NCBI RefSeq assembly: GCF_003667575.1 | Contig: NZ_RCUY01000002.1 | Span: 372,001 to 436,000, forward strand | DNA from: Mycetocola lacteus | Lineage (GTDB): Bacteria; Actinomycetota; Actinomycetes; Actinomycetales; Microbacteriaceae | Length of the DNA: 64,000 bases | Direction: 5' to 3' | Part shown: piece after piece, positions 5,557 through 42,060 of the stretch | Numbering within the stretch: the first letter of the stretch is position 1 | How the letters are laid out: each line of letters opens with the position of its first letter | Made by a program: the position numbers and the translations under genes | Notes under the pieces: model-generated | Told to the model about the DNA's origin: nothing | What the model saw: only the letters and a program-made list of their open reading frames with translations | The model's database searches: none

Positions 5557-6845
5557 CCCCCAACGCCACCTTCGGATTCGATGTGGCGAGCAATGTATGC
5601 CTCGGCATGCTCACGCTGCCGCTCATCAAATGCGCTCGACATGTGCTCAACTTCGGCCGCGGAGATACCGCGACGGCTGGCGAATTCTCGCCAGCGCTTT
5701 ACGGCGTCCACAACACGAGCGAGCATCTGAGCCGCTTCCCGCTCCGTGAGCCCATAGATCTTGTGATCAGCGGTAAGTAGTCTGATATCTCGATCCAGCG
5801 GATTATCATCGTCGTTGATGGGCCGCGCCTGAACCTTCACACCGGCACGCGTGGGGTTGACATCAAATAGTGGGCTCAACCGCCAGCTGCTCCCCACGCG
5901 CACAAACCCGTGGTTTTTCCAGTGATCGTCAAGATTTCTCACGAGAAGAGTGAGAGCGATCCGCCCGAACAGCTCTCGCAAGTCAGCTCGAGACCCGGTG
6001 AGTGAATCAACCGTATCCGCAAAATCTGCGTAGGTCGCACGTCCCTGACTCCCAAGAGACATAGCCGACAGAGCAGAGACGTACCCCACTCGACGCGCAT
6101 CGACTCGATCAAAGCGTTTCACGAGGAGCGACGATCCCAGGCTTTCCAGGCGGATCAGCTCGAGCTGAGGAACATCTAGTCCGGCTTCGCCTGCAATATC
6201 GAGAGCTACGGCCTCCCACGCCTCGATTTCCACACGTCGATCCCTGTTTGAGGGGAGCTTGAGAATCCACAACGAGCCGTCCTCTCGTCGCACGTTCGCC
6301 TTCGGCCGGGCCCCACCCAGGCTCGAGCCCGCAACGCCGAGAAGCTCCAAATCCTCCGCAGTGGCCTCGTAGATCTCAAAACGAGCTGCGGCTTCGGCCA
6401 GGCGGCGAGCATCAACTACCCGAGGCTCAGAGTGCGCTGCATTCGTGAGCCATTCCCCGGCATGCTTAAGCCGAATCGCGCCCACGCGCGAAACATCGTT
6501 AAGCTGCACGAGGTGGTCGAATGCCCCAATTGCGCGTGGCTGTTCCGGGTCGCGCTCATCGGCATAGGCAGCATCAATCAGCGCCGCGCCCCAGTCGTCG
6601 GGCGAAACATCGGCAAACGCCCCGAACAATTCGGTATCCGCACCCGAATACTGCCGCCCGGGTACGAGCGGTAAGTCGGGCGAAAGCTCATAACTCCGCG
6701 AATCCTGAAGGTACGAAGGAGCATATTCAAACGACGAGGCCGACAGCCGCCTACCCGCCCCAAAGGACGCCCGAAGAATCCCCACCAGTTCTGGCTCGCC
6801 GAGGCCCTCATCGAGATAGACCTCCACCTCGTTCAGCAGTCTCAT
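5553..6845 (-). CDS. hipA: HipA-family serine/threonine kinase toxin
   Basis: Toxin half of a type II HipBA module. In E. coli HipA phosphorylates glutamyl-tRNA synthetase and induces growth arrest and persistence; the target here is unknown. The 430-residue length matches the family. Features seen: an N-terminal HipA_N-like domain (about 1-115), the nucleotide-binding loop GSSLGGARPKA (173-183), the kinase lysine in ILKLPS (K196), LLVKRFDR, the catalytic loop RNLDDHWKNHG (303-313) with its Asp-His-Asn pattern, and a DFG-like LSPLFDV (324-330). The ATG overlaps the hipB stop as ATGA, so translation is coupled. GC content looks lower than in the core genes nearby. Confidence 0.93.
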   Translation of the reverse strand: MRLLNEVEVYLDEGLGEPELVGILRASFGAGRRLSASSFEYAPSYLQDSRSYELSPDLPLVPGRQYSGADTELFGAFADVSPDDWGAALIDAAYADERDPEQPRAIGAFDHLVQLNDVSRVGAIRLKHAGEWLTNAAHSEPRVVDARRLAEAAARFEIYEATAEDLELLGVAGSSLGGARPKANVRREDGSLWILKLPSNRDRRVEIEAWEAVALDIAGEAGLDVPQLELIRLESLGSSLLVKRFDRVDARRVGYVSALSAMSLGSQGRATYADFADTVDSLTGSRADLRELFGRIALTLLVRNLDDHWKNHGFVRVGSSWRLSPLFDVNPTRAGVKVQARPINDDDNPLDRDIRLLTADHKIYGLTEREAAQMLARVVDAVKRWREFASRRGISAAEVEHMSSAFDERQREHAEAYIARHIESEGGVGG

Positions 6846-7135
6846 TTCGTGAGCGCAATCTTCTCATCCATGAGCGCTCGTCCCGCAGGCGAGGCCCACG
6901 GATCGGTACTCGAGATGACGGTGTTGGCGATACCAAGAACACTCAAAACCGCCAAAAGGGAGTCCATCCGGGCAGAACCTGCGCCGTTCTCAATGGAACG
7001 AAGCGTGTCACGCGTCACGAATGCGCGCTCAGCTAGCTGCGAAGCGCTCATGCCCTGGAGCTTCCGCCAGCGCGCGATGTTCTCTCCGAGATCCGCGAGC
7101 TGCCGCTCTCTCGCCGGCGACCGACGCATAACCAT
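6842..7135 (-). CDS. hipB: HipB-like antitoxin, XRE-family repressor
   Basis: Antitoxin and autorepressor of the adjacent HipA. The 97-residue protein has a helix-turn-helix of the XRE/Cro type at about residues 15-70 (LGENIARWRKLQG, then SASQLAERAFVTRDTLRSIE), followed by a 25-residue tail likely to contact HipA. The antitoxin gene precedes the toxin and overlaps it by 4 bp, the standard layout. A second Met (residue 3) is an alternative start. A perfect 16-bp palindrome about 37 bp upstream is a likely operator. Confidence 0.92.
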   Translation of the reverse strand: MVMRRSPARERQLADLGENIARWRKLQGMSASQLAERAFVTRDTLRSIENGAGSARMDSLLAVLSVLGIANTVISSTDPWASPAGRALMDEKIALTK

Positions 7136-7171
7136 AATTCACCCCATTCTGAAGTCTATAGCTGTCAATTC

Positions 7172-7187
7172 TAGTTCAATTGAACTA
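7172..7187. promoter_or_regulatory. Perfect 16-bp palindrome, candidate hipBA operator
   Basis: TAGTTCAATTGAACTA reads identically on both strands and lies 37-52 bp upstream of the hipB start codon, in an AT-rich patch with promoter-like hexamers such as TTGACA (minus strand, 7163-7168). HipB repressors bind inverted repeats in this position; binding here is an inference. Confidence 0.6.
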
Positions 7188-7291
7188 TTTATGTGCCATC
7201 CATCATCAACTGAGGTCGTTGAGATTCCTCATTCCACCAGGTCCTCTCCACCAGCTACCGGACTGCGGTCTTACCTCGCCTGCATGCACGA

Positions 7292-7723
7292 CTAGGCTCC
7301 GCTCGTGTCGCCCGCGCCGCGAACCATCACGCGGGTGGGGTCGGCGAAGTGAGTGAAGCCGTACTGCTCGTAGAGGCCCTGGGCAGTCACGGTGGTGAGG
7401 ATGAGGCGGCGCAGACTCAGCGGTTCGAGGTCCTCAATGACGGCGGCCATTAGCATCTTGCCCAGTCCCTCCCCACGCGTATCCGAGTCCACAAAGACGT
7501 CGCAGATCCAGCCAAACGTTGCCCCGTCGGTCACCACGCGAGCATAGGCAACCTGGCGACCGGTCTCCTCCTCGTAGATCCCATAGTTTCGAGACGCGTC
7601 CATCGCGGTTTCCTGCGCTTCACGCGATCGGTCCTGCGCCCAATACGATTCATCCCGCAGCCAGGCATGCACCCGGTCCCGGTCGACGCGGGCAGGGTCG
7701 GTGGAAAAAACATATGTCGTCAT
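7292..7723 (-). CDS. GNAT-family N-acetyltransferase
   Basis: Probably acetylates an amino group of a small molecule or protein using acetyl-CoA; the substrate cannot be told from sequence. From the chosen ATG (MTTYVFSTDPARVD) it is 143 residues, one GNAT domain. The acetyl-CoA motif is VFVDSDTRGEGLGKMLM (R/Q-x-x-G-x-G/A pattern), with the C-terminal LYEQYGF motif after it. An earlier in-frame start would add 39 residues that do not look like protein, so it was not used. It stands alone between hipB and the ATPase pseudogene, both also accessory-looking. Confidence 0.85.
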   Translation of the reverse strand: MTTYVFSTDPARVDRDRVHAWLRDESYWAQDRSREAQETAMDASRNYGIYEEETGRQVAYARVVTDGATFGWICDVFVDSDTRGEGLGKMLMAAVIEDLEPLSLRRLILTTVTAQGLYEQYGFTHFADPTRVMVRGAGDTSGA

Positions 7724-30185: not shown

Positions 30186-31127
30186 CTAGAACAGGCGGTA
30201 CTCGATCTGTTCGCGGGGAATCTCGTGTTCCTCATCGGAAGAATCCGCCCGCGCGGGATCGAGGTGCGCCCGGGATCCGGTCTCCTCGGACTCCTCGGCC
30301 AGGCGGCTCAACACCGCCGCCGGATCGTCCTCATCCGAAGCTTCGGGATGCTCGGCCCGCACCGATCCCACCAGTTTCTCCACCGAGATGGCCGAGGGAT
30401 CCGGGGCCGCGGTGCCGCCGGCAAAGGCGAAACGCTCGGCGGCCAGGAAGGCCAGTCGCACCGACTGCACCACGAGCACCCGGCGCAGTCCGTCGGACAC
30501 CTCACCCCGCTCATGCGCCACCGCCGCCAGCCGGGACACCGTCTCGGCGCGACGGGCGATACGGATGTCCGGGTGTCCACGCTCGGCACGCACCGCATCG
30601 GTCACCACCTGCCAGCGCAGCGAGGCCGGCAGGGTGACCCGTGGGGACACCGGCGGGATTTTTTCGTTCAGAATGGCCTTGAAACGCGACTTCTCGATCG
30701 CGTCGAGGTAGGCGGTGTACTCATAGGCATCCAGGATGCGCCGGGAAGCGCGGTCGCGGCCGGAGACCCCCTCGAGGTCCCAGAGCGGCCAGATCTCAAC
30801 CTCGGCCACCTCGAAGACGTCGAGGATGCGCATCGCCACCGCGTCGGTGCGCTGCCCGGTCAGGTGGCGGCGAATGCGGGTGCGCAGCTGCTCATTGGTT
30901 TGGCCCACATAGATGGGCTCGCCCTCGTAGTCATAAAACGCGTAGACGCCCCACTGAGCATCGGCCCAGGCGCGGCCCTGGTTGTCGCGTTCGGTCAGGA
31001 AGCGGGAGAGCTCATCCCGGAAGCGCCGCACCTCGGGGGCTGCCAGCTCACGCTTGGCGGGCTTGGCACCGTGAAGAAGCTCATCCTCACCCTCAAAGCC
31101 CGGAAGCAGGGTCTCGAGGTCAGACAC
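30186..31127 (-). CDS. GIY-YIG type II restriction endonuclease
   Basis: Predicted restriction enzyme of the GIY-YIG fold, as in Eco29kI-like endonucleases. The nuclease core at about residues 55-165 shows GVYAFYDYEG then YVGQT, a helix with LRTRIRRHL carrying candidate catalytic Arg and His, the YEYTAYLDAIEK glutamate and an ILNEKIP asparagine. About 130 residues of helical C-terminal sequence follow, longer than Eco29kI. The GTG start at 31127 overlaps the end of the methyltransferase gene by 8 bp, so the methylase is made first. Specificity cannot be read from sequence. GC content matches the host, suggesting long residence. Confidence 0.85.
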   Translation of the reverse strand: MSDLETLLPGFEGEDELLHGAKPAKRELAAPEVRRFRDELSRFLTERDNQGRAWADAQWGVYAFYDYEGEPIYVGQTNEQLRTRIRRHLTGQRTDAVAMRILDVFEVAEVEIWPLWDLEGVSGRDRASRRILDAYEYTAYLDAIEKSRFKAILNEKIPPVSPRVTLPASLRWQVVTDAVRAERGHPDIRIARRAETVSRLAAVAHERGEVSDGLRRVLVVQSVRLAFLAAERFAFAGGTAAPDPSAISVEKLVGSVRAEHPEASDEDDPAAVLSRLAEESEETGSRAHLDPARADSSDEEHEIPREQIEYRLF

Positions 31128-32286
31128 CGGCGGCTCGCACACTGGGGCGGGCGGCGCGCACCCCACGCACCACCGGCAGCAGGTAGTTCTCGGACAGCCA
31201 GCCCACCACCGGAGCAGCCACCGCGTCGCCGAAGGCAAAGAAGGCCTGGTTGTCGCGGGCACCGCTCAGGTCGAAGTCGCCGACCCCCATCAGCCGGGCG
31301 TACTCGCGCGGGGTCATCCAGCGCACCCGGAGCCGGCCGTTGCCCAGCTGCACCACCGCCTGCTTGGAGGAGCCCCCGCGCGCGGTGCGCAGGCAGCCGG
31401 AAATATCATCCGGACGGACCTCCCAGACCGCCTGCCCGTGTCGGGTTCGGCGGTACGCGGTACGGTGCTTCACGCCCGCGGCCCCACGCATCTCGGTGAT
31501 TCGGCTCAGCTGCACCGGGGAGAGCGAGTCGATAAATTTCTGTGTGCGCGCCTCATCCCACCAGCGGGCATCGTCGGCGGGCATGGTCTCGGCGAGCTTG
31601 CCAAACCCCTCCACCAGGATGGCCGGGGCATCGGGCAGCAGGGCCTGATGGGTGGTCAGCGTGGAGTCGCGGAAGAAGCCCTGCAGGTTTTCCGGACGCA
31701 GCTCGGGGTTGGCTCCGGGCACCGACTCGGGCGGGTTCTTGGCCCCCACCACAAACAGGCGCGGACGTGACTGCGGCACAAAGCGGCGGGCATCAATCAT
31801 CAGGATGTCGATCGAGTAGCCCAGCTGGTTGAACGCGCGGATGGCGGCGGTGAGGTCGTCCCCGCCGTTGGAGGTGGCCAGGCCGACCACGTTTTCCAGG
31901 ACCACGGTGTCCGGAGCATCGTCTTCGAGCTCCTCGAGCAGCCGAATAAAGTGCCAGAACGCGCTCGACTGAGTCCCGGCCAGACCGCGCCGGTTGCCGG
32001 CCAGGGAGAGGTCGGTGCAGGGCGACGACGCCCAGGCCAGCGCCGCACCTCGGGGGAGGTCCTCACCGGAGACGTTGCCCACGTCGCCGACCACGTAGGT
32101 GTGTGCACCGGTCTCGGCATCCTGCGGGAAGTTCCTGTTATACAGTGCCCACTTATCGGGCTCATAGTCGTTGGACCAGGCCACCCGAAAACCGGCGCGC
32201 TCAAGACCCACTCGGGCCAGTCCGATGCCGGCAAAAAACTCCAGCACGGAGGGCGAGTGTGACGTGATGGGATGCACATTGGACAC
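31120..32286 (-). CDS. C5-cytosine DNA methyltransferase (type II RM)
   Basis: Modification enzyme protecting host DNA from the linked endonuclease. The 388-residue protein has motif I FAGIGLARVGL (18-28), motif IV SSPCTDLSLAG with catalytic C90, motif VI ENV (131-133), motif VIII RPRLFVVG, motif IX TPREYARLMG and motif X FGDAVAAPVVG near the end. The target-recognition region lies at about 225-320. It is upstream of and overlaps the nuclease gene. No controller protein is seen; expression order alone may ensure methylation precedes cutting. Confidence 0.95.
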   Translation of the reverse strand: MSNVHPITSHSPSVLEFFAGIGLARVGLERAGFRVAWSNDYEPDKWALYNRNFPQDAETGAHTYVVGDVGNVSGEDLPRGAALAWASSPCTDLSLAGNRRGLAGTQSSAFWHFIRLLEELEDDAPDTVVLENVVGLATSNGGDDLTAAIRAFNQLGYSIDILMIDARRFVPQSRPRLFVVGAKNPPESVPGANPELRPENLQGFFRDSTLTTHQALLPDAPAILVEGFGKLAETMPADDARWWDEARTQKFIDSLSPVQLSRITEMRGAAGVKHRTAYRRTRHGQAVWEVRPDDISGCLRTARGGSSKQAVVQLGNGRLRVRWMTPREYARLMGVGDFDLSGARDNQAFFAFGDAVAAPVVGWLSENYLLPVVRGVRAARPSVRAAGV

Positions 32287-34785: not shown

Positions 34786-34821
34786 ACGCCGCCCGTCACC
34801 GCTCGGTGGCGGGCGGCGTTT
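34786..34821. terminator. Convergent terminator between nucleotidase and FtsW-like gene
   Basis: A 15-bp stem (34786-34800 with 34805-34819, one G-U wobble) with a GCTC loop and short T-run. It terminates the plus-strand nucleotidase and overlaps the last codon of the minus-strand FtsW-like gene. Confidence 0.8.
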
Positions 34822-36442
34822 CGTATTCGCTCGGGGTGGGGGCGGGGAGCCAGTCGACCAGCTTGGGCGCGGGCTCGGGCTGCGCGCGTTCGGCCAATGC
34901 GGTGGCGGACTTCCGCGCGGCCCGGGGCGTGCGTGCGCTCGCCGTAGCCGAGGCCGCGTCTGCGTGCCCCCGCGCGGGATTCTGCGCCGCCCCCGGGACG
35001 GGCATGCGCGGGGCAGGATCGACGCGGGCCTCCCCCGGGGCGAGCGAATGACGCTCCACCGAGAGCACCGCACCGATCGCCGCCCCCGCGGAGATCAGCG
35101 CCGATCCTCCCGTGGACATCAGCGGCAGCGGCACTCCCAACACCGGGAGCAGCCCGACCACCACCGAGATGTTGATGAAGGCCTGGGTGATCAGCCAGGT
35201 GAACACGCCCCCGGCCACCACCCGACCGAAGGTTCCGCGGGCGCGCGCCAGGATTGCCAGCAGGGCGACCGCGAGTACGCAGAACAGGAGCAGGACCAGC
35301 ACGGTGCCCACCAGGCCGAGTTCCTCCCCCACCACCGCGAACAGGTAGTCGTTATCGGCGGCAGGGAGCCAGCCCCACTTCTCGATCGAGTTGCCCAGGC
35401 CGATCCCGAACACCCCGCCATCGGCCAGCGCCCACGTTCCGTGCAATGGCTGCCAGCACAGGCCCAGATACTCCGACTTATCGGTGCGGCAATCCACCTG
35501 GAAAAAGTGCACCAGTCGCATCACGCGGTTGGCTTTGATCGCGGTCATCAGCAGGGCCGCGACGATGCCGGACAGCGCCACGATTCCGATCGTACGCAGG
35601 TTGACGTTGGCGAAGACCAGCACCCCGATCATCACGGTCGCCATGACCAGCACGGTGCCCAGGTCACCGCCAATCAGGTTGATTCCCATCGAGAGGGCCG
35701 CCACCGGAACCACGGGAATCACCGCGTGCTTCCACCCCTTGAGCAGCCGTTCCTTCGAACCGAGTACCGTGGCTGCCCAGATGATGAAGGCGAACTTCAT
35801 CACCTCCGAGGGCTGCATCGAGATAAACCCCAGGTGGATCCAGTTGCGGTTACCGCCGGACTCGTATCCGAGCGGTGTATAGACGGCGAGCTGAAGCAGC
35901 AGCGCCCCGGCCAGGCCGATCCAGGCGAACCGGTTCCAGAACCTCGGGGTTGCCCGGCTGGCCAGGAACATCGCGATCAGCGCGAGCGCCGCGACCCCGC
36001 CCTGACGCAGCGCCCCGGCAAAGGGGTCGCCGGCGTTTTCCGCATCCCCCGGCTGGGAGGCCGACTGCACCATCACCACGCCAAACCCGATGAGGAACAG
36101 CACCACCGAGGTCAGCAGCAGCGCGCGGTTGGAGACCCCGGCGATCCGAGTGCGCAGCGCCGTGTCGATGCTTAGCATCCGCGCCTGTAGGCGGGACGAC
36201 GTCTTCACCGCGACGTCGCTTCGCTGCACCCGGAACTGTCGCCTCCGAGTGCTCGTCTGTTGCGCTCGCGAACCCGCATGCGATGCCTCCCCTGTGGACC
36301 GGTATGTCACATTCCAGCGTAGGTTGGACGCTCCGGCGACATGCCCGCCCTCAAGAGACTCCCAGTGAGGGATAACCCTTGTGAGGCGTTCCAATCGGGT
36401 GGGAGGTGTGTTAGGTTCGGGGTTACCAGTACTAGTCGTCAT
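34796..36442 (-). CDS. FtsW/RodA/SpoVE-family protein (orphan paralogue)
   Basis: Peptidoglycan glycan-strand polymerase family member with ten membrane helices between about residues 105 and 475. Family signatures are GGNRNWIHLGFISMQPSEVMKFAF, GGDLGTVLVM, and PLPLMSTGGSALIS near the end. It lies outside a division gene cluster, so it is an extra FtsW-like protein. The cytoplasmic N terminus is long and basic. The ATG at 36442 is the longest option, with only a weak AGAGA upstream; starts nearer M89 (MLSIDTAL) are possible. The C-terminal 75 residues are Ala/Pro/Arg-rich and probably disordered. Confidence 0.85.
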   Translation of the reverse strand: MTTSTGNPEPNTPPTRLERLTRVIPHWESLEGGHVAGASNLRWNVTYRSTGEASHAGSRAQQTSTRRRQFRVQRSDVAVKTSSRLQARMLSIDTALRTRIAGVSNRALLLTSVVLFLIGFGVVMVQSASQPGDAENAGDPFAGALRQGGVAALALIAMFLASRATPRFWNRFAWIGLAGALLLQLAVYTPLGYESGGNRNWIHLGFISMQPSEVMKFAFIIWAATVLGSKERLLKGWKHAVIPVVPVAALSMGINLIGGDLGTVLVMATVMIGVLVFANVNLRTIGIVALSGIVAALLMTAIKANRVMRLVHFFQVDCRTDKSEYLGLCWQPLHGTWALADGGVFGIGLGNSIEKWGWLPAADNDYLFAVVGEELGLVGTVLVLLLFCVLAVALLAILARARGTFGRVVAGGVFTWLITQAFINISVVVGLLPVLGVPLPLMSTGGSALISAGAAIGAVLSVERHSLAPGEARVDPAPRMPVPGAAQNPARGHADAASATASARTPRAARKSATALAERAQPEPAPKLVDWLPAPTPSEYETPPATER

Positions 36443-36879
36443 TCTCTGTACACACGGAGAGGCGGCTAGTCTTCTTTTTCCCCCGACTCATCTCATCGGC
36501 ACAGAGCAGTCTGTATCATTTCATCGTCGATGGATTTTCAGCCCTAAGGACGCCTCGTTCAATACGTCTAGAAGTAAACGCGAACAGCTTTCATGAACGA
36601 TCACCTACCCTGCGTGAACCATGGTCCGCTGCCGCGCACTTCGTAATCTTGAACTTGCAAGGGACCACAGACCTCAGCCATAAGTCAGCACTTCTGAAAT
36701 CCAACTGAATTCTAACTATGTAGATGGGCACGTCACCTGCCATTTCAATTTGGCGGGTGACGTACCCGTGGGTCTCAAACAAACGTGTTGTAAAACCGCA
36801 GTATGTCCTCGAAAGGTGAACTCGGAGACCCAAATCCAATAGGTCGGAGCCCCGGTTTTTATTAGCTAGGATTAGTCTT
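36443..36879. other. AT-rich gap left of the NTPase gene, with hairpin
   Basis: No convincing gene. An 82-codon minus-strand frame at 36591-36839 has no recognisable sequence or ribosome-binding site. A 16-bp inverted repeat (36726-36741 with 36752-36767, one mismatch, one wobble) with a 10-nt loop may terminate the NTPase transcript. An 8-bp pair TGGGTCTC (36769-36776) and GAGACCCA (36825-36832) adds a second possible stem. Confidence 0.5.
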
Positions 36880-39138
36880 TCAGGCCGAACTGACCATATC
36901 CCAGATTGGGTCCTTGCTCGATCGTCGTAGTTCCACGATCGCCCCCATACGTCGTGTGTGTCGCCGCTGAGGTACGTAGACGTGTCCTTGATCTCCCTTA
37001 ATCCGCGAAACTATCTTTTCCGAGATCATGAAGGTAATTATTCGTTGAGCGATCCGCCTGTCCCAATAGGATTCGGCTCCTCTTAGCAACGCTTCTTCTT
37101 TGCGCCCTGCTCCATGCTGGAAAAAAAGCTTCTTGATAATCACAAGTAGTGTCTTTTGGGCATCGTTGAGATCAAGTTCACTGATCTTGGAAGTGTTTAG
37201 CGTGTGATTGAACACCTGCACACTGCAATCGTCTCGAAAATAATCCGGAAGTTTACGATTCTCGCTTACCCCGTAAAAATCTGTGATGAGACAATCATTT
37301 ATCCAAACATCGGAGACTTCACACTCTTCATGCGTAATTTTTTCTATAACAGTCGACTGAATTATCAGCTTCGTGATCGTCTTGCCAGCCATCCGAAGAT
37401 CAACGATATGAGAGTTGTTCACCATTAGGCCATCAAAATCACAAGTCTCTTCCTCGCCGAGAAGCCGAGCAGCAACGTAATCTGCGACAAATTGAGAGTT
37501 TCCAGAGCTTTCGCATTCCTTGGCATAGTTGAGAGCTTGCTGACCAGGCTCAAGATTTTCCGACCACACCCGTAATCCGAAAATGTCGAGCGGTTGCTTC
37601 CAATTAGATTTGGGAACGTGCGGATCTCTATTTAGCTGAGATTGGACGACAGCAAGGCCGCGTAATCCATTTTTCGCATAGTCGTCAATGAAGACTCGAT
37701 CAGTGCTTTCACTACTTAGACGTCCTAAATAGGGCAGTCTCTGAAGTAGTACAGACGAATCATCAACAGGGCTATATCCTGTCACTGAGAAAAATGCCTC
37801 GTTGAGTTGAGCCACACTGATCGACTCATTATTTCGGTGCTGGTACCGAGAATCTTGCGCAAGCTTCAAGAGAATTCTCTTGACAGTATCTGCATCCAAA
37901 GAGCTGTGAATTCTAATCTCGCGTTCGCAAACAGCGTCCACGATACTTTCAAAAAACTGAACTTCACCACTATTTTTTTCTTCCAGCTTCGCAAGTTGCT
38001 CATCGTCTAGTTGAGACAGGAGCTGGCAAATTAGTGGTTTCCGTGGCATCCAATCGGGGAGTATCGAAAGGCTCGAGTTCAGTTGCAGATAGTCTTTTGC
38101 CTCCTGCTCGGTAAATTCAGCGGGACACCTAAGTACGATGGCATCATCGCGAAGTCCAAGGCTATCTATCATCTCTTTATCAGAACCGAAATAGTGCTCT
38201 CTTCCGGTGATCAAAATACCTGCTCGAGAACTCGACTGCACAACATCCCTGACACCAACCAAGCTTTGCTTACGGATCTCACTCAGCCTTGCCGCTTCGC
38301 CAGACCAAGACTGTGAACCGATCTCATCAAACCCATCCAGCAAAATAGGGTGGTTACCATCTCCCGAGCTTCTGATCAATGAATCTGCAAATTTGCCCAA
38401 TCCGAGATCTTCGAGATGATTCCTGAAGATAATTGATTTGCTCTTCAGCCCCCAGTTATCTCGAAGGTTAATGGCAATAGGCGTGAATACCGAATCCTCC
38501 TTCGCGAGCATTTCGAAAATCTCTTTGATGCATCGTGATTTCCCCGAGCCGAACTCCCCCACAAGAACAACCTGCGACCGATTCTTCAACGCGTTCGAGA
38601 TGTCAGTGACTGAATATTTCTTCTCATCGCCGTCAAGGTATCGGATTTCTGCATATCTTCCTGTATCCGGATCACCGGATCTGGGTGACACTGCACTTCC
38701 AAATGCCTTCTTTTTTCTCAAGAATTGATATTCACTAGATCCAAGAAATTTTGCCCCAAATTCGTCTAACGAAAGAATCTTGATGGACGATGCTTCAGCT
38801 GTCGCTTTACTTGATGCGGGAGGCTGTCCGTCAGTCAAAAAATACGCTTCGACATATATTCCCTTGGCAAATAGTGCATTTCGAACTGAATTGATCTTGG
38901 CTATATCTGTGCGAGTCTTATCCAACGAATAGTTTTTCGAAACTTCGATCACGACATAGTGGTTTTCTCTCAGTTTGATGACTCCATCGACTCGCACTCC
39001 TGCGATTTGCTCAGGTACACAAGGAGATGCCCAAATTGCTTCTGCCATGCGTCGAGCTTTTTCTTCAAGCGTTTTCCAATGAGCCACCAATATATCTCCA
39101 TCCATGAATTTTCCAGGACGCACAGCTTGTAGTTTCAC
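36880..39138 (-). CDS. NACHT/STAND-like NTPase with N-terminal nuclease-like domain (putative antiphage protein)
   Basis: A 752-residue protein in a strongly AT-rich segment, with a layout typical of bacterial STAND defence ATPases. Residues 1-130 resemble a PD-(D/E)xK-type domain: VRVDGVIKL with D51, then YVVIEVSKN with E65 and K68, so the E-x-x-K spacing is slightly off canonical. Residues about 190-400 form a NACHT-like NTPase: Walker A GEFGSGKS (194-201) and Walker B LLDGFDEIG (266-274). Beyond lie a helical region, a beta-helix-like stretch (about 555-615) and a C-terminal winged-helix-like end. The start is GTG at 39138; ATG at 39105 is an alternative. The defence role is inferred from architecture and context. 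Confidence 0.75.
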   Translation of the reverse strand: MKLQAVRPGKFMDGDILVAHWKTLEEKARRMAEAIWASPCVPEQIAGVRVDGVIKLRENHYVVIEVSKNYSLDKTRTDIAKINSVRNALFAKGIYVEAYFLTDGQPPASSKATAEASSIKILSLDEFGAKFLGSSEYQFLRKKKAFGSAVSPRSGDPDTGRYAEIRYLDGDEKKYSVTDISNALKNRSQVVLVGEFGSGKSRCIKEIFEMLAKEDSVFTPIAINLRDNWGLKSKSIIFRNHLEDLGLGKFADSLIRSSGDGNHPILLDGFDEIGSQSWSGEAARLSEIRKQSLVGVRDVVQSSSRAGILITGREHYFGSDKEMIDSLGLRDDAIVLRCPAEFTEQEAKDYLQLNSSLSILPDWMPRKPLICQLLSQLDDEQLAKLEEKNSGEVQFFESIVDAVCEREIRIHSSLDADTVKRILLKLAQDSRYQHRNNESISVAQLNEAFFSVTGYSPVDDSSVLLQRLPYLGRLSSESTDRVFIDDYAKNGLRGLAVVQSQLNRDPHVPKSNWKQPLDIFGLRVWSENLEPGQQALNYAKECESSGNSQFVADYVAARLLGEEETCDFDGLMVNNSHIVDLRMAGKTITKLIIQSTVIEKITHEECEVSDVWINDCLITDFYGVSENRKLPDYFRDDCSVQVFNHTLNTSKISELDLNDAQKTLLVIIKKLFFQHGAGRKEEALLRGAESYWDRRIAQRIITFMISEKIVSRIKGDQGHVYVPQRRHTRRMGAIVELRRSSKDPIWDMVSSA

Positions 39139-39596
39139 ACGTCCGAATCATCTCCATACGGTAGCCATGATCGCTCGTATTCATAATGCCCAGATGAGGT
39201 GACAATATTGAGTTCAAGGGCTCTAACTGTCAGCCAACACGTCTCTAATCGCTGGTTAATGAAGAAAAGCTTTCAGACTACTCATCCAACCGGCAAGGAG
39301 TTCTAGAGTTTCCAAGGAGTAAGCCTCCCTCGAATTCAAGGTCTGTGCCGGAATAGGGAATTGTTAGGTGAGTCTTCCCGCGGGCACCGGCCGCAAGGGA
39401 TTTTAGTCTGCGCTGCCTGCAGAAGCCTCTGACCTGGCAAGACGAATTACGAATTCAGTAAGAATGGGAGAAACCTGTGACATCTGTTACCAGCGTTTGT
39501 TCTAACAGCCGTCTTATAGCTGTGGCATTTCGGTAATAATCGAAGGAAATAGTTTCAAATCGCCCTGTCACATACCTTTCCCATGCTGCTCTGCAC
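39139..39596. other. AT-rich gap upstream of the NTPase gene
   Basis: Upstream region of the NTPase gene. I see no supported gene, tRNA, integrase remnant or clear attachment repeat here. It presumably carries the promoter of the NTPase gene, but no hexamer pair is convincing. Base composition stays low until the helicase terminator, marking the right side of the acquired segment. Confidence 0.4.
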
Positions 39597-39632: not shown

Positions 39633-39645
39633 GAGGATCGCGGAC

Positions 39646-39720
39646 TACTCGGCGGTCTTGGCCTCGAGCTGGGCGGCTCGGCGGCGTCGATTACTCGGCG
39701 GTCTTGGCCTCGAGCTGGGC
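39646..39720. repeat. Duplicated 3' end of the helicase gene
   Basis: A 29-bp sequence beginning TACTCGGCGGTCTTGGCC occurs at 39646-39674 and 39692-39720. The right copy encodes the last residues of the helicase (AQLEAKTAE). The left copy, 46 bp further downstream in the transcript, repeats these codons out of frame, with TAG instead of TAA. Such a tail duplication suggests a past insertion or replication slippage at this site. Confidence 0.8.
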
Positions 39721-41904
39721 ACGAGTGGGGACCCGGCCGGCGATTTCATCGATGATGTCGTCGCCAGGGAAGGCGTCCACAAACTCGGCCGAGATCTCGG
39801 CGCGGGAGAGCAGTTCCTCCATGCGGCGGCGGCGCGAGCGCGGGATCAGGGTGACCACGGTGCCCTCACGACCGGCACGACCGGTACGGCCGGCACGGTG
39901 GGTGTAGGTCTTGTACTCGTCCGGGGCGTCGGCCTGGATCACCAGGTCGATGTCGTCCACGTGGATACCGCGGGCGGCGACGTCGGTCGCCACCAGGACA
40001 TCCACCCGGCCGCTGGTGAGCTGGTGCAGGTTGCGCGTGCGCTTGGCCTGGTTCAGGTCACCGTGCAGGGCGACGGCGAAGACACCGGCATCCTCCAGCT
40101 GCTCGGTCAGACGCTCGGCGTAGGCACGGGTCCGCGAGAAGATCACGGTCTTACCGTTGCGTCCGGCGAGCTGCTCCAGGATGCGGTCCTTGTCGCGGTG
40201 CTCAACCACCAGGACGCGGTGGTCGATGGTCGAGGACGCCTGGTCCTCACCGGCAACCTCGTGCACGGCCGGGTTCTCCAGGAACTCGTTCACGAGTGCC
40301 GCAACACCCTTGTCCAAGGTGGCCGAGAAGAGCAGCTTCTGGCTGTCATCGGCGGTGTTACGGATGATGCGCTGCACGGGCTCCAGGAAGCCCAGGTCGC
40401 ACATGTGGTCGGCCTCATCCAGCACCACCACGTTGACCTCAGACAGGTCCAGACGACCCTGCTCGATCAGGTCCTCGATGCGGCCCGGAGTACCCACCAC
40501 GATGTCGACGCCGCGCTGCAGCGCACCCACCTGACGGTGCTGGGGAACACCACCGTAAATCTGGGTGGTGAACAGTCCCACGGAGCGGGCGATCGGCTGC
40601 ACGGTGCGGTCGATCTGGAGGGCCAGCTCACGGGTCGGGGCGAGGATCAGTGCGCGGGGCAGACGGCCCGGACGACGGTTCTTTCCGCCACCGTTTTCCA
40701 TCAGACGCTCCACCAGCGGGGCACCAAAGGCGATGGTCTTACCGGAGCCGGTGCGGCCACGGCCCAGGACGTCGCGGCCCTCGAGGACCACGGGAATGGT
40801 TGCGGCCTGGATCGGGAACGGTGCGGCGGCACCGAGCTCGGCCAGGGCATTGACGATGTTGCCACCGAGACCCAGGTCACCGAAGGTCTTGCCCTCGACG
40901 TCCTCGGCCTGGATAGCCTCAGCCTCGAGACGCTCAAGTACTACGTCATCCTGCGGCTGGTAGCCGCCACGACGGGCACCACGGTCGCCGTGCGAGGGGC
41001 GCTCGGGACGGTCACCGCGGTCAAAACGTGCGGGGCGCTCGGAACGCTCCCCGAACGCGGGGCGTGCGGGACGCTCATCGCGGTTAAAGCGTGCGGGACG
41101 CTCATCGCGGTCGCCGCCACGGGCCGGGCGCTCGTCGCGGTTGAAACGCGGAGCGCGGTCATCACGGTCGAAACGTGCCGGACGGCCATCGCGGTCGCCA
41201 CGACCGGCGGCCGGACGCTCGTCACGATCAAAGCGACGCGGTGCGCGCTCGTCACGGTCGAAACGGGCGGGACGCTCGTCACGGTTGAAACGGGGGGCAC
41301 GCTCGTCGCGGTTGAAACGGGGAGCACGATCATCACGGTCAAAACGTGCGGGACGACCCTCGCGGTCGCCGCCACGGGCGGGGCGCTCGTCGCGGTTGAA
41401 ACGCGGAGCACGCTCGTCACGGTCGAAGCGACGCGGTGCGCGCTCGTCACGGTCAAAACGTGCGGGGCGCTCGTCACGGTTGAAACGGGGAGCGCGGTCA
41501 TCGCGGTCAAAACGTGCGGGACGACCCTCGCGGTCGCCGCCACGGGCCGGGCGCTCGTCACGGTTGAAACGGGGAGCACGCTCGTCACGGTCAAAACGTG
41601 CGGGACGACCCTCGCGGTCGCCACGACCGGCGGCCGGACGCTCGTCACGGTTGAAACGCGGAGCGCGGTCATCGCGGTCAAAGCGGCGCGGGGCGCGCTC
41701 GTCACGGGCACCCGAGCGGGCGGCGCGATCGTCGGCATCCCAGCGGTTCTTCTGGCGCGGGGCGTCCTCTACTTCGGGACGGAATCCGCGGTGTCCGGGG
41801 CTCCGGCTACCAGCCTTGGGGCCGCCCTTGGCAGGACGCTTGCCGTAGCTGGGATCGTAGTTCTTTGCGGGGCGCTTTCCGCCCACGTGGTTCTTTTTAG
41901 GCAT
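39691..41904 (-). CDS. DEAD-box RNA helicase with long Arg/Asp-repeat N terminus
   Basis: ATP-dependent RNA helicase for ribosome assembly, RNA turnover or cold adaptation. From the ATG at 41904 (MPKKNHVGGKRPAK) it has 737 residues. Residues about 55-300 are a highly repetitive charged tract of RDERPARFDRDERAPR-like units. The helicase core follows: Q-motif region with PFPIQAATIP, motif I GRGRTGSGKT, PTRELA, VVLDEADHM, SAT, and motif VI HRAGRTGRAG. The frame extends nine codons upstream, but without a better ribosome-binding site. Long Arg-rich tails in DEAD-box proteins are known to bind RNA and promote condensation; that role here is inferred. Confidence 0.93.
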   Translation of the reverse strand: MPKKNHVGGKRPAKNYDPSYGKRPAKGGPKAGSRSPGHRGFRPEVEDAPRQKNRWDADDRAARSGARDERAPRRFDRDDRAPRFNRDERPAAGRGDREGRPARFDRDERAPRFNRDERPARGGDREGRPARFDRDDRAPRFNRDERPARFDRDERAPRRFDRDERAPRFNRDERPARGGDREGRPARFDRDDRAPRFNRDERAPRFNRDERPARFDRDERAPRRFDRDERPAAGRGDRDGRPARFDRDDRAPRFNRDERPARGGDRDERPARFNRDERPARPAFGERSERPARFDRGDRPERPSHGDRGARRGGYQPQDDVVLERLEAEAIQAEDVEGKTFGDLGLGGNIVNALAELGAAAPFPIQAATIPVVLEGRDVLGRGRTGSGKTIAFGAPLVERLMENGGGKNRRPGRLPRALILAPTRELALQIDRTVQPIARSVGLFTTQIYGGVPQHRQVGALQRGVDIVVGTPGRIEDLIEQGRLDLSEVNVVVLDEADHMCDLGFLEPVQRIIRNTADDSQKLLFSATLDKGVAALVNEFLENPAVHEVAGEDQASSTIDHRVLVVEHRDKDRILEQLAGRNGKTVIFSRTRAYAERLTEQLEDAGVFAVALHGDLNQAKRTRNLHQLTSGRVDVLVATDVAARGIHVDDIDLVIQADAPDEYKTYTHRAGRTGRAGREGTVVTLIPRSRRRRMEELLSRAEISAEFVDAFPGDDIIDEIAGRVPTRAQLEAKTAE
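41000..41740. repeat. Coding tandem repeats (Arg/Asp-rich helicase N terminus)
   Basis: Imperfect 24-48 bp direct repeats built from variations of CGCTCGTCACGGTCAAAACG. They encode blocks such as ERPARFDRDERAPRR, ERAPRFNRDERPARGG and GDREGRPARFDRDD. Order and copy number of the blocks are irregular, as expected from repeat expansion and contraction, so the length may vary between strains. Confidence 0.85.
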
Positions 41905-42060
41905 AACAATATTTCCGGGTATTTCAGGCATGAAACAGCGAAGGGCCGCGCGCAGCGGCGCTCTCTCCCCCGGACATCAGTGGGCCGGGGCCGTTCACAA
42001 CGTGTGAATATGCACACGAGATCCGTGTGCAAAACCGGCCCACCAGACTGACAATTGCTT
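41905..42060 (-). promoter_or_regulatory. Structured leader region of the helicase gene
   Basis: The gap 41905-42261 holds no supported gene. Within the helicase leader, TGCACACG at 42011-42018 pairs with CGTGTGCA at 42024-42031, giving an 8-bp hairpin with a 5-nt loop about 107 bp before the start codon. Long structured leaders are common on cold-induced DEAD-box helicase mRNAs; control here is speculative. Confidence 0.35.

Follow-up and report, generated by a model that had tools for sequence, protein, structure and literature searches.

What does a single large gene do when it stands alone in a stretch of AT-rich DNA that two congeners lack? The question is raised by a minus-strand open reading frame (36880..39138) of Mycetocola lacteus, located within 64,000 nucleotides of contig NZ_RCUY01000002.1 (hereafter, the window). 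With a probability of about three in four (0.74), we read it as a single-gene, NLR-like antiphage sensor with a predicted NACHT module, whose N-terminal nuclease domain, predicted to be of the PD-(D/E)XK fold, would cleave nucleic acid and thereby kill or arrest the infected cell. Bacterial NACHT proteins correspond to the inflammasome receptors of animals, and to our knowledge the targets that they sense and destroy are known for few of them. An earlier reading of the sequence alone (the sequence-only reading) had proposed a defence role for this NACHT/STAND protein, and the conserved motifs and genomic settings described below support such a role.

Conservation was counted in 45 sequences spanning two clades and in an alignment of 112 close homologues, comprising the window protein and 111 of the 120 listed proteins (P0002 and eight shorter ones were excluded). 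The features of the gene, all on the minus strand, are as follows:
39138: GTG start of the longest open reading frame, from which residues 1-752 are numbered
36880..39087: coding region, stop included, if translation begins at GTG codon 18, as is probable; the N-termini of the family line up with codons 18-21
38704..39087: predicted nuclease-fold domain, residues 18-145
38986..38988: D51, invariant acid (45/45 over both clades; 112/112 close homologues)
38944..38946: E65, invariant acid (45/45)
38896..38919: K74-x3-D78-x2-K81 triad of the next helix (K74 45/45; D78 44/45; K81 43 K and 2 R of 45)
37459..38703: linker and NACHT module (NBD, HD1, WHD, HD2-like), residues 146-560
38536..38559: Walker A, GEFGSGKS, residues 194-201 (G197, G199, K200 and S201 45/45; G194 44/45)
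38317..38343: Walker B, LLDGFDEIG, residues 266-274 (D268, G269, D271 and E272 45/45)
37204..37458: candidate sensor, residues 561-645, a short stretch that is beta-helix-like (pentapeptide-like) by the strands of the model
36883..37203: winged-helix-like domain, residues 646-752, from the secondary structure of the model

The NACHT signature consists of a Walker A motif and a Walker B motif of the form D-(small)-hydrophobic-D-E. Both are present in the translation, as GEFGSGKS and LLDGFDEI, and both are conserved at the positions assigned to them from the sequence alone. The predicted NBD-HD1-WHD fold resembles solved NACHT proteins, and the Pfam NACHT cut-off (PF05729, 26.7 bits) is passed by four of nine rescanned homologues (P0122, 39.2; P0131, 35.4; L015, 33.1; P0196, 31.8) and missed by the other five and by the window protein. 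Mean pairwise identity among the 112 sequences is 0.55 and 0.54 in the two NTPase/WHD parts and 0.345 in HD2. Models and searches place a putative effector, the NACHT module and a putative C-terminal sensor in that order within one protein, the domain set of a bNACHT antiphage protein, and the protein would be expected to work like one.

The N-terminal domain, with a mean pairwise identity of 0.46, is predicted from models and from matches to solved nucleases to adopt a restriction-endonuclease-like fold, the outcome on which the sequence-only reading had staked its nuclease assignment. The alpha-beta-beta-beta-alpha-beta core order of the PD-(D/E)XK superfamily is present in the model, with D51 and E65 on neighbouring predicted strands (48-57 and 60-67). 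These two acids of the D51/E65/K68 pattern proposed earlier hold; K68 as the catalytic lysine does not. It is a lysine in 94 of 112 close homologues but in only 13 of 45 sequences over both clades, whereas K74 is a lysine in 112/112 and 45/45. The usual catalytic-lysine place, two residues after E65, is occupied by T (36) or S (9) in all 45 sequences, so the canonical ExK motif is absent. The modelled helix 72-91 carries K74, D78 and K81, E25 is nearly invariant across both clades, and the family pattern reads E-X25-28-D-X12/13-E-X8-K-X3-D-X2-K. Because S/T67 occurs in 45/45 while K74 is invariant, the predicted nuclease is classed as a displaced-lysine variant of the PD-(D/E)XK fold rather than a canonical enzyme, and we propose that the K74-x3-D78-x2-K81 triad supplies the catalytic lysine.

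The same pattern raises a tentative possibility, to which we assign clearly less than even odds: that the gene represents a large unnamed family of NLR-like receptors with an RNA endonuclease effector. Its cap-snatching-style site would consist of E, D, E and a helical K-x3-D-x2-K and lack the ExK lysine, and infection would trigger an oligomer that shreds RNA, not DNA. Improbable is a catalytically dead nuclease fold acting as a nucleic-acid reader or scaffold, with defence or regulation proceeding by another route. The S/T67 substitution in 45/45 sequences speaks for it, as does the Pfam family NACHT-associated inactive Restriction Endonuclease 1 (NA-iREase1, PF22722), which is weakly matched by two sister-clade proteins (P0196, E 0.0068, 16.8 bits; P0131, E 0.11, 12.9 bits; cut-off 27) and not matched at E<=1 by the window protein. 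However, invariant D51, E65 and K74 and nearly invariant E25, D78 and K81 in two clades exceed what a dead fold should need, and the arenavirus endonuclease is active with a helix K-D-K triad and, by its motif, no lysine at the ExK place (PMC2940758).

The C-terminal part fits the preferred antiphage-sensor reading. The beta-helix-like stretch and winged-helix-like end described from the sequence alone both appear in the model. The former is the most variable part of the protein (mean pairwise identity 0.297), whereas the last 107 residues are conserved (0.522), with Q674, G678, R679 and G687 invariant in the 45 sequences. A variable stretch between conserved parts suggests, from sequence comparison, a sensor-like pattern. 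The best match of a whole-protein profile in the Protein Data Bank (PDB) is weak, a pentapeptide-repeat protein (6fls, E 0.0026); neither this profile nor that of the N-domain (no match at E<=10) found a close solved relative in PDB sequences.

The proposed mechanism would run as follows. At rest, the NACHT module would be loaded with ADP and kept closed by the C-terminal part, made up of the variable HD2 and beta-helix and the conserved winged helix. Release would come from a product of the phage or from a host factor that the phage has altered, ATP binding would drive oligomerisation, and the nuclease domains would pair and turn active, in the manner of the paired nuclease domains of Cdn1. 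The infection would then end together with the cell.

The settings of homologues are consistent with such a role. Seventeen loci were compared (open reading frames of at least 70 aa within 7 kb, less at contig ends), and the sequence-only reading had expected defence rather than metabolic contexts; the homologues lie in prophage hotspots, in a phage, on a plasmid, in a transposon that also carries restriction genes, and next to genes for methyltransferases. The informative point among these settings is a P2 hotspot. In two near-identical loci (L003 and L004), the NACHT gene lies within a P2-like prophage, and the order in L003 is portal gpQ, NACHT gene, PDC-S19/DUF3644 gene, gpA; L004 shares the first three and has a diverged gpA. 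The gpA-gpQ interval is described by Rousset et al. (PMC9122126) as an antiphage hotspot, occupied in P2 by old and tin. The DUF3644 protein (L003:12401-13648, minus strand) matches PADLOC PDC-S19 and adjoins the NACHT gene in both prophages. The complete Pseudomonas phage Haddon (L007) carries its copy 0.6 kb from the integrase gene, as does an Erwinia plasmid (L006) at 0.7 kb, with a toxin-antitoxin pair farther on. In Xenophilus (L001), TnsB, TnsC and two TniQ genes come first, followed by the NACHT gene and then by genes for a UvrD-type helicase, a type III methylase and a ResIII protein; we read the carrier as a Tn7/Tn5053-like element. Elsewhere, an integrase gene lies 0.4 kb upstream (L013), terminase and DUF4055 genes lie upstream (L014), and a tail-collar protein (L015), endolysin and tail genes (L005) or an endolysin-like gene within about 5 kb (L010-L012) are found nearby. 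On the viral contig L011, a 464-aa PIN_8 protein (6161-7555, minus strand), 1.3 kb from the NACHT gene, is a possible second defence gene. A copy from the same bacterial family (L020) is flanked on one side by genes for N6/N4 and D12 methyltransferases. In a distant actinobacterial relative (L022, G501:C58), the gene is split into two overlapping reading frames, and a gene matching PADLOC mad3 and mad8 lies about 3 kb away. Some neighbours of homologues are housekeeping or unrecognised genes, and nothing was recognised in the two neighbours scanned at L021. No partner gene emerged: the NACHT gene is the only cluster in all 17 loci, and the next largest, a DNA methyltransferase, occurs in five.

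These carriers also bear on the two weakest alternatives. Defence against plasmids or other incoming DNA would suit a nuclease fold and NTPase in mobile elements, and plasmid, prophage and transposon carriers compete among themselves; yet the copies in phage Haddon and at the phage-exclusion locus of P2 point to phages, leaving this alternative very improbable. Least credible is a STAND transcription regulator on the model of MalT, with the C-terminal winged helix binding DNA and the NTPase as a switch: the winged-helix-like end is strongly conserved and 2 of 120 listed Haddon-type proteins carry the source label AraC-like DNA-binding protein, but the N-terminal nuclease motif is left unexplained, no conserved neighbour to regulate appears across the 17 loci, and several settings are mobile and defence-linked.

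The gene of the window appears to be a recent arrival, and the extra stretch that carries it is delimited by an empty site in a genome of the same genus (G001):
36388..39592, no strand: extra stretch carrying the NACHT gene

As noted from the sequence alone, a large gene stands alone in AT-rich DNA: the insert (3205 bp) has 46.8% GC and its surroundings about 66%, and third-position GC is 45% in the NACHT gene versus 75-88% in four neighbouring genes. The insert lies between a helicase terminator and an FtsW/RodA-type gene. Compared with the window by blastn, G001:C2 and G003:C9 match in the flanks (95%/92% and 90%/77% identity, respectively) with no match to the interior, and the helicase and FtsW/RodA-type genes are about 100 bp apart in G001 and about 70 bp apart in G003. 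The G001 helicase is 100% identical across the 431 residues compared, and the junction edges overlap by only 2 bp in the alignment to G001. The insert was probably acquired horizontally; loss from these congeners is the alternative, and the deviating base composition of the stretch favours gain. A search of the insert edges for terminal repeats or a target-site duplication gave nothing convincing. Besides the NACHT gene and the called FtsW start, only two reading frames of at least 60 aa lie in the insert or across its edge, 36381-36596 (plus strand) and 36591-36839 (minus strand), the latter with no Pfam match. An Rfam search of the insert for RNA elements gave no match at E<=0.5, and a promoter scan was no better than chance (6 matches versus 4.0 expected, sd 1.7).

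Several observations concern the flanks. The called start of the 548-aa FtsW/RodA-type gene (34796-36442, minus strand) falls inside the insert; the true start is probably downstream, because the G001 match begins only at residue 20. In the DEAD-box-type helicase (39691-41931, minus strand), RDERPARFDRDDRAPRFN-like repeats form a long N-terminal run, and the end of its gene is duplicated at 39640-39730 as a direct repeat of about 25-30 bp around the stop codon, which does not stem from the insertion since insert-free G001 also has it. In G000, one helicase match occurs at identical coordinates in contigs C6 and C16, pointing to duplicated contigs, with a possible bearing on the contamination estimate of 8.95%. 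At 30186-32286 (minus strand), a GIY-YIG nuclease gene overlaps one for a C5-cytosine methyltransferase (PADLOC MTase_II, E 8.2e-160); the two probably form a type II restriction-modification pair. This pair was considered as a defence-island partner and rejected: because it is syntenic in G001 and G003, it is resident and the insert is separate.

The reading frame, open for 752 codons from a GTG, is not a chance product, judging by its 418 homologues. The span given by the sequence-only reading is correct as a reading frame and probably wrong in its start: since the family alignment begins near W21, translation probably starts at the GTG of codon 18 (39087), which has GGAG 8 nt upstream and would give a 735-aa protein. 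The database copy (P0002) has 741 aa and begins at M12.

The 418 homologues came from 7996 candidates scored in a search of 5.8 billion proteins, and one homologue search returned 1038. Apart from the window protein, 119 are listed; their identity is 40-54%, for most of them over 97% of the length, and they are about 730 aa long, with source names including Pseudarthrobacter, Cryobacterium, Rhizobium, Azospirillum, Paracoccus, Castellaniella and Achromobacter. Presence is sporadic (1/59 relatives, 1/396 genomes over the phylum and 4/396 in the order, own genome included each time), and E. coli genomes gave no DNA match to the L003 gene. Searches of Pfam, NCBIfam and PADLOC gave no model that spans the protein from end to end, which fits the earlier suggestion of an undescribed subtype, and the abstract openings and paper passages surveyed contained no report of the same architecture. 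The main bNACHT classification is reportedly that of Kibby et al. 2023, and the family may fall within a published bNACHT clade.

Several points weigh against the antiphage-nuclease reading. The canonical ExK lysine is missing, and for that reason the N-domain could be dead. Foldseek E-values for this domain are modest (best 8.5e-5; 2/1187 matches at <=0.001), and a PADLOC CARF_PDDEXK link is weak (7e-5, in 1/22 members). The window protein scores only 12.6 bits against PF05729, and five of the nine rescanned homologues fall short (P0072, 25.0; L003, 24.8; P0204, 23.2; P0039, 12; L021 without a match). Because 11 of the 16 other loci derive from viral or phage collections (ten from IMG/VR, and L007 from a phage collection), phage settings arise by construction and give no frequency estimate; named mobile carriers are rare (1/50,697 phage and 1/72,556 plasmid records). 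On its other side, the L020 copy has a tilS-like gene at a distance of 3 kb, and 2/2 L021, 2/3 L022 and 2/5 L020 neighbours scanned had no PADLOC match. In the window, the NACHT gene stands alone, with the resident restriction-modification genes 4.6 kb off.

What recommends the family for study is that it appears single-gene, is carried by phages and other mobile elements, and has a putative effector site with a moved lysine in 45/45 sequences of two clades, which sets K74 against K68 as clear alternatives. Its variable beta-helix between conserved parts also offers a set of natural candidate sensors for finding triggers.

Among known systems, some Avs/AVAST STAND NTPases carry an N-terminal nuclease. 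The protein shares the STAND sensor plan with them, and AVAST5 (9nc9) is among its Foldseek matches, but the Avs4 model has 1579 positions against about 735 aa here and scores the window protein at 12.7 bits (cut-off 1500); PADLOC Avs models gave no match at E<=1 for the window protein and none at E<=1e-3 for 22 members. Animal NLRs combine CARD or PYD domains with leucine-rich repeats. The predicted shape resembles these immune receptors, whereas identity to NLRC4, NOD2 and NLRP3 is 12-16%, a nuclease replaces CARD/PYD, and leucine-rich repeats are absent. Cdn1 and Can2/Card1 are switched by cyclic oligoadenylate via CARF, in contrast to the NACHT module here, and their E-D spacing is 36 versus 26-29; K325 of Cdn1 aligns at S/T67. 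The arenavirus L-protein endonuclease, by its motif in the passages available (E-X38-P-D-X(11,13)-E-X12-K-X3-D-X2-K; PMC2940758), has the same succession of E, D and E followed by K-X3-D-X2-K as the family pattern. The bNACHT25 and bNACHT32 proteins of clade 6 end in a helical NCH1 C-terminus according to the excerpted description through which they are compared here (PMC12169576), unlike the modelled beta-helix and winged helix of the window protein, in which no Pfam match to NCH1 was found. They share with it the plan of an N-terminal PD-(D/E)XK effector, predicted for the window protein, joined to a NACHT module, and their essential D48 has its likeness in the invariant D51.
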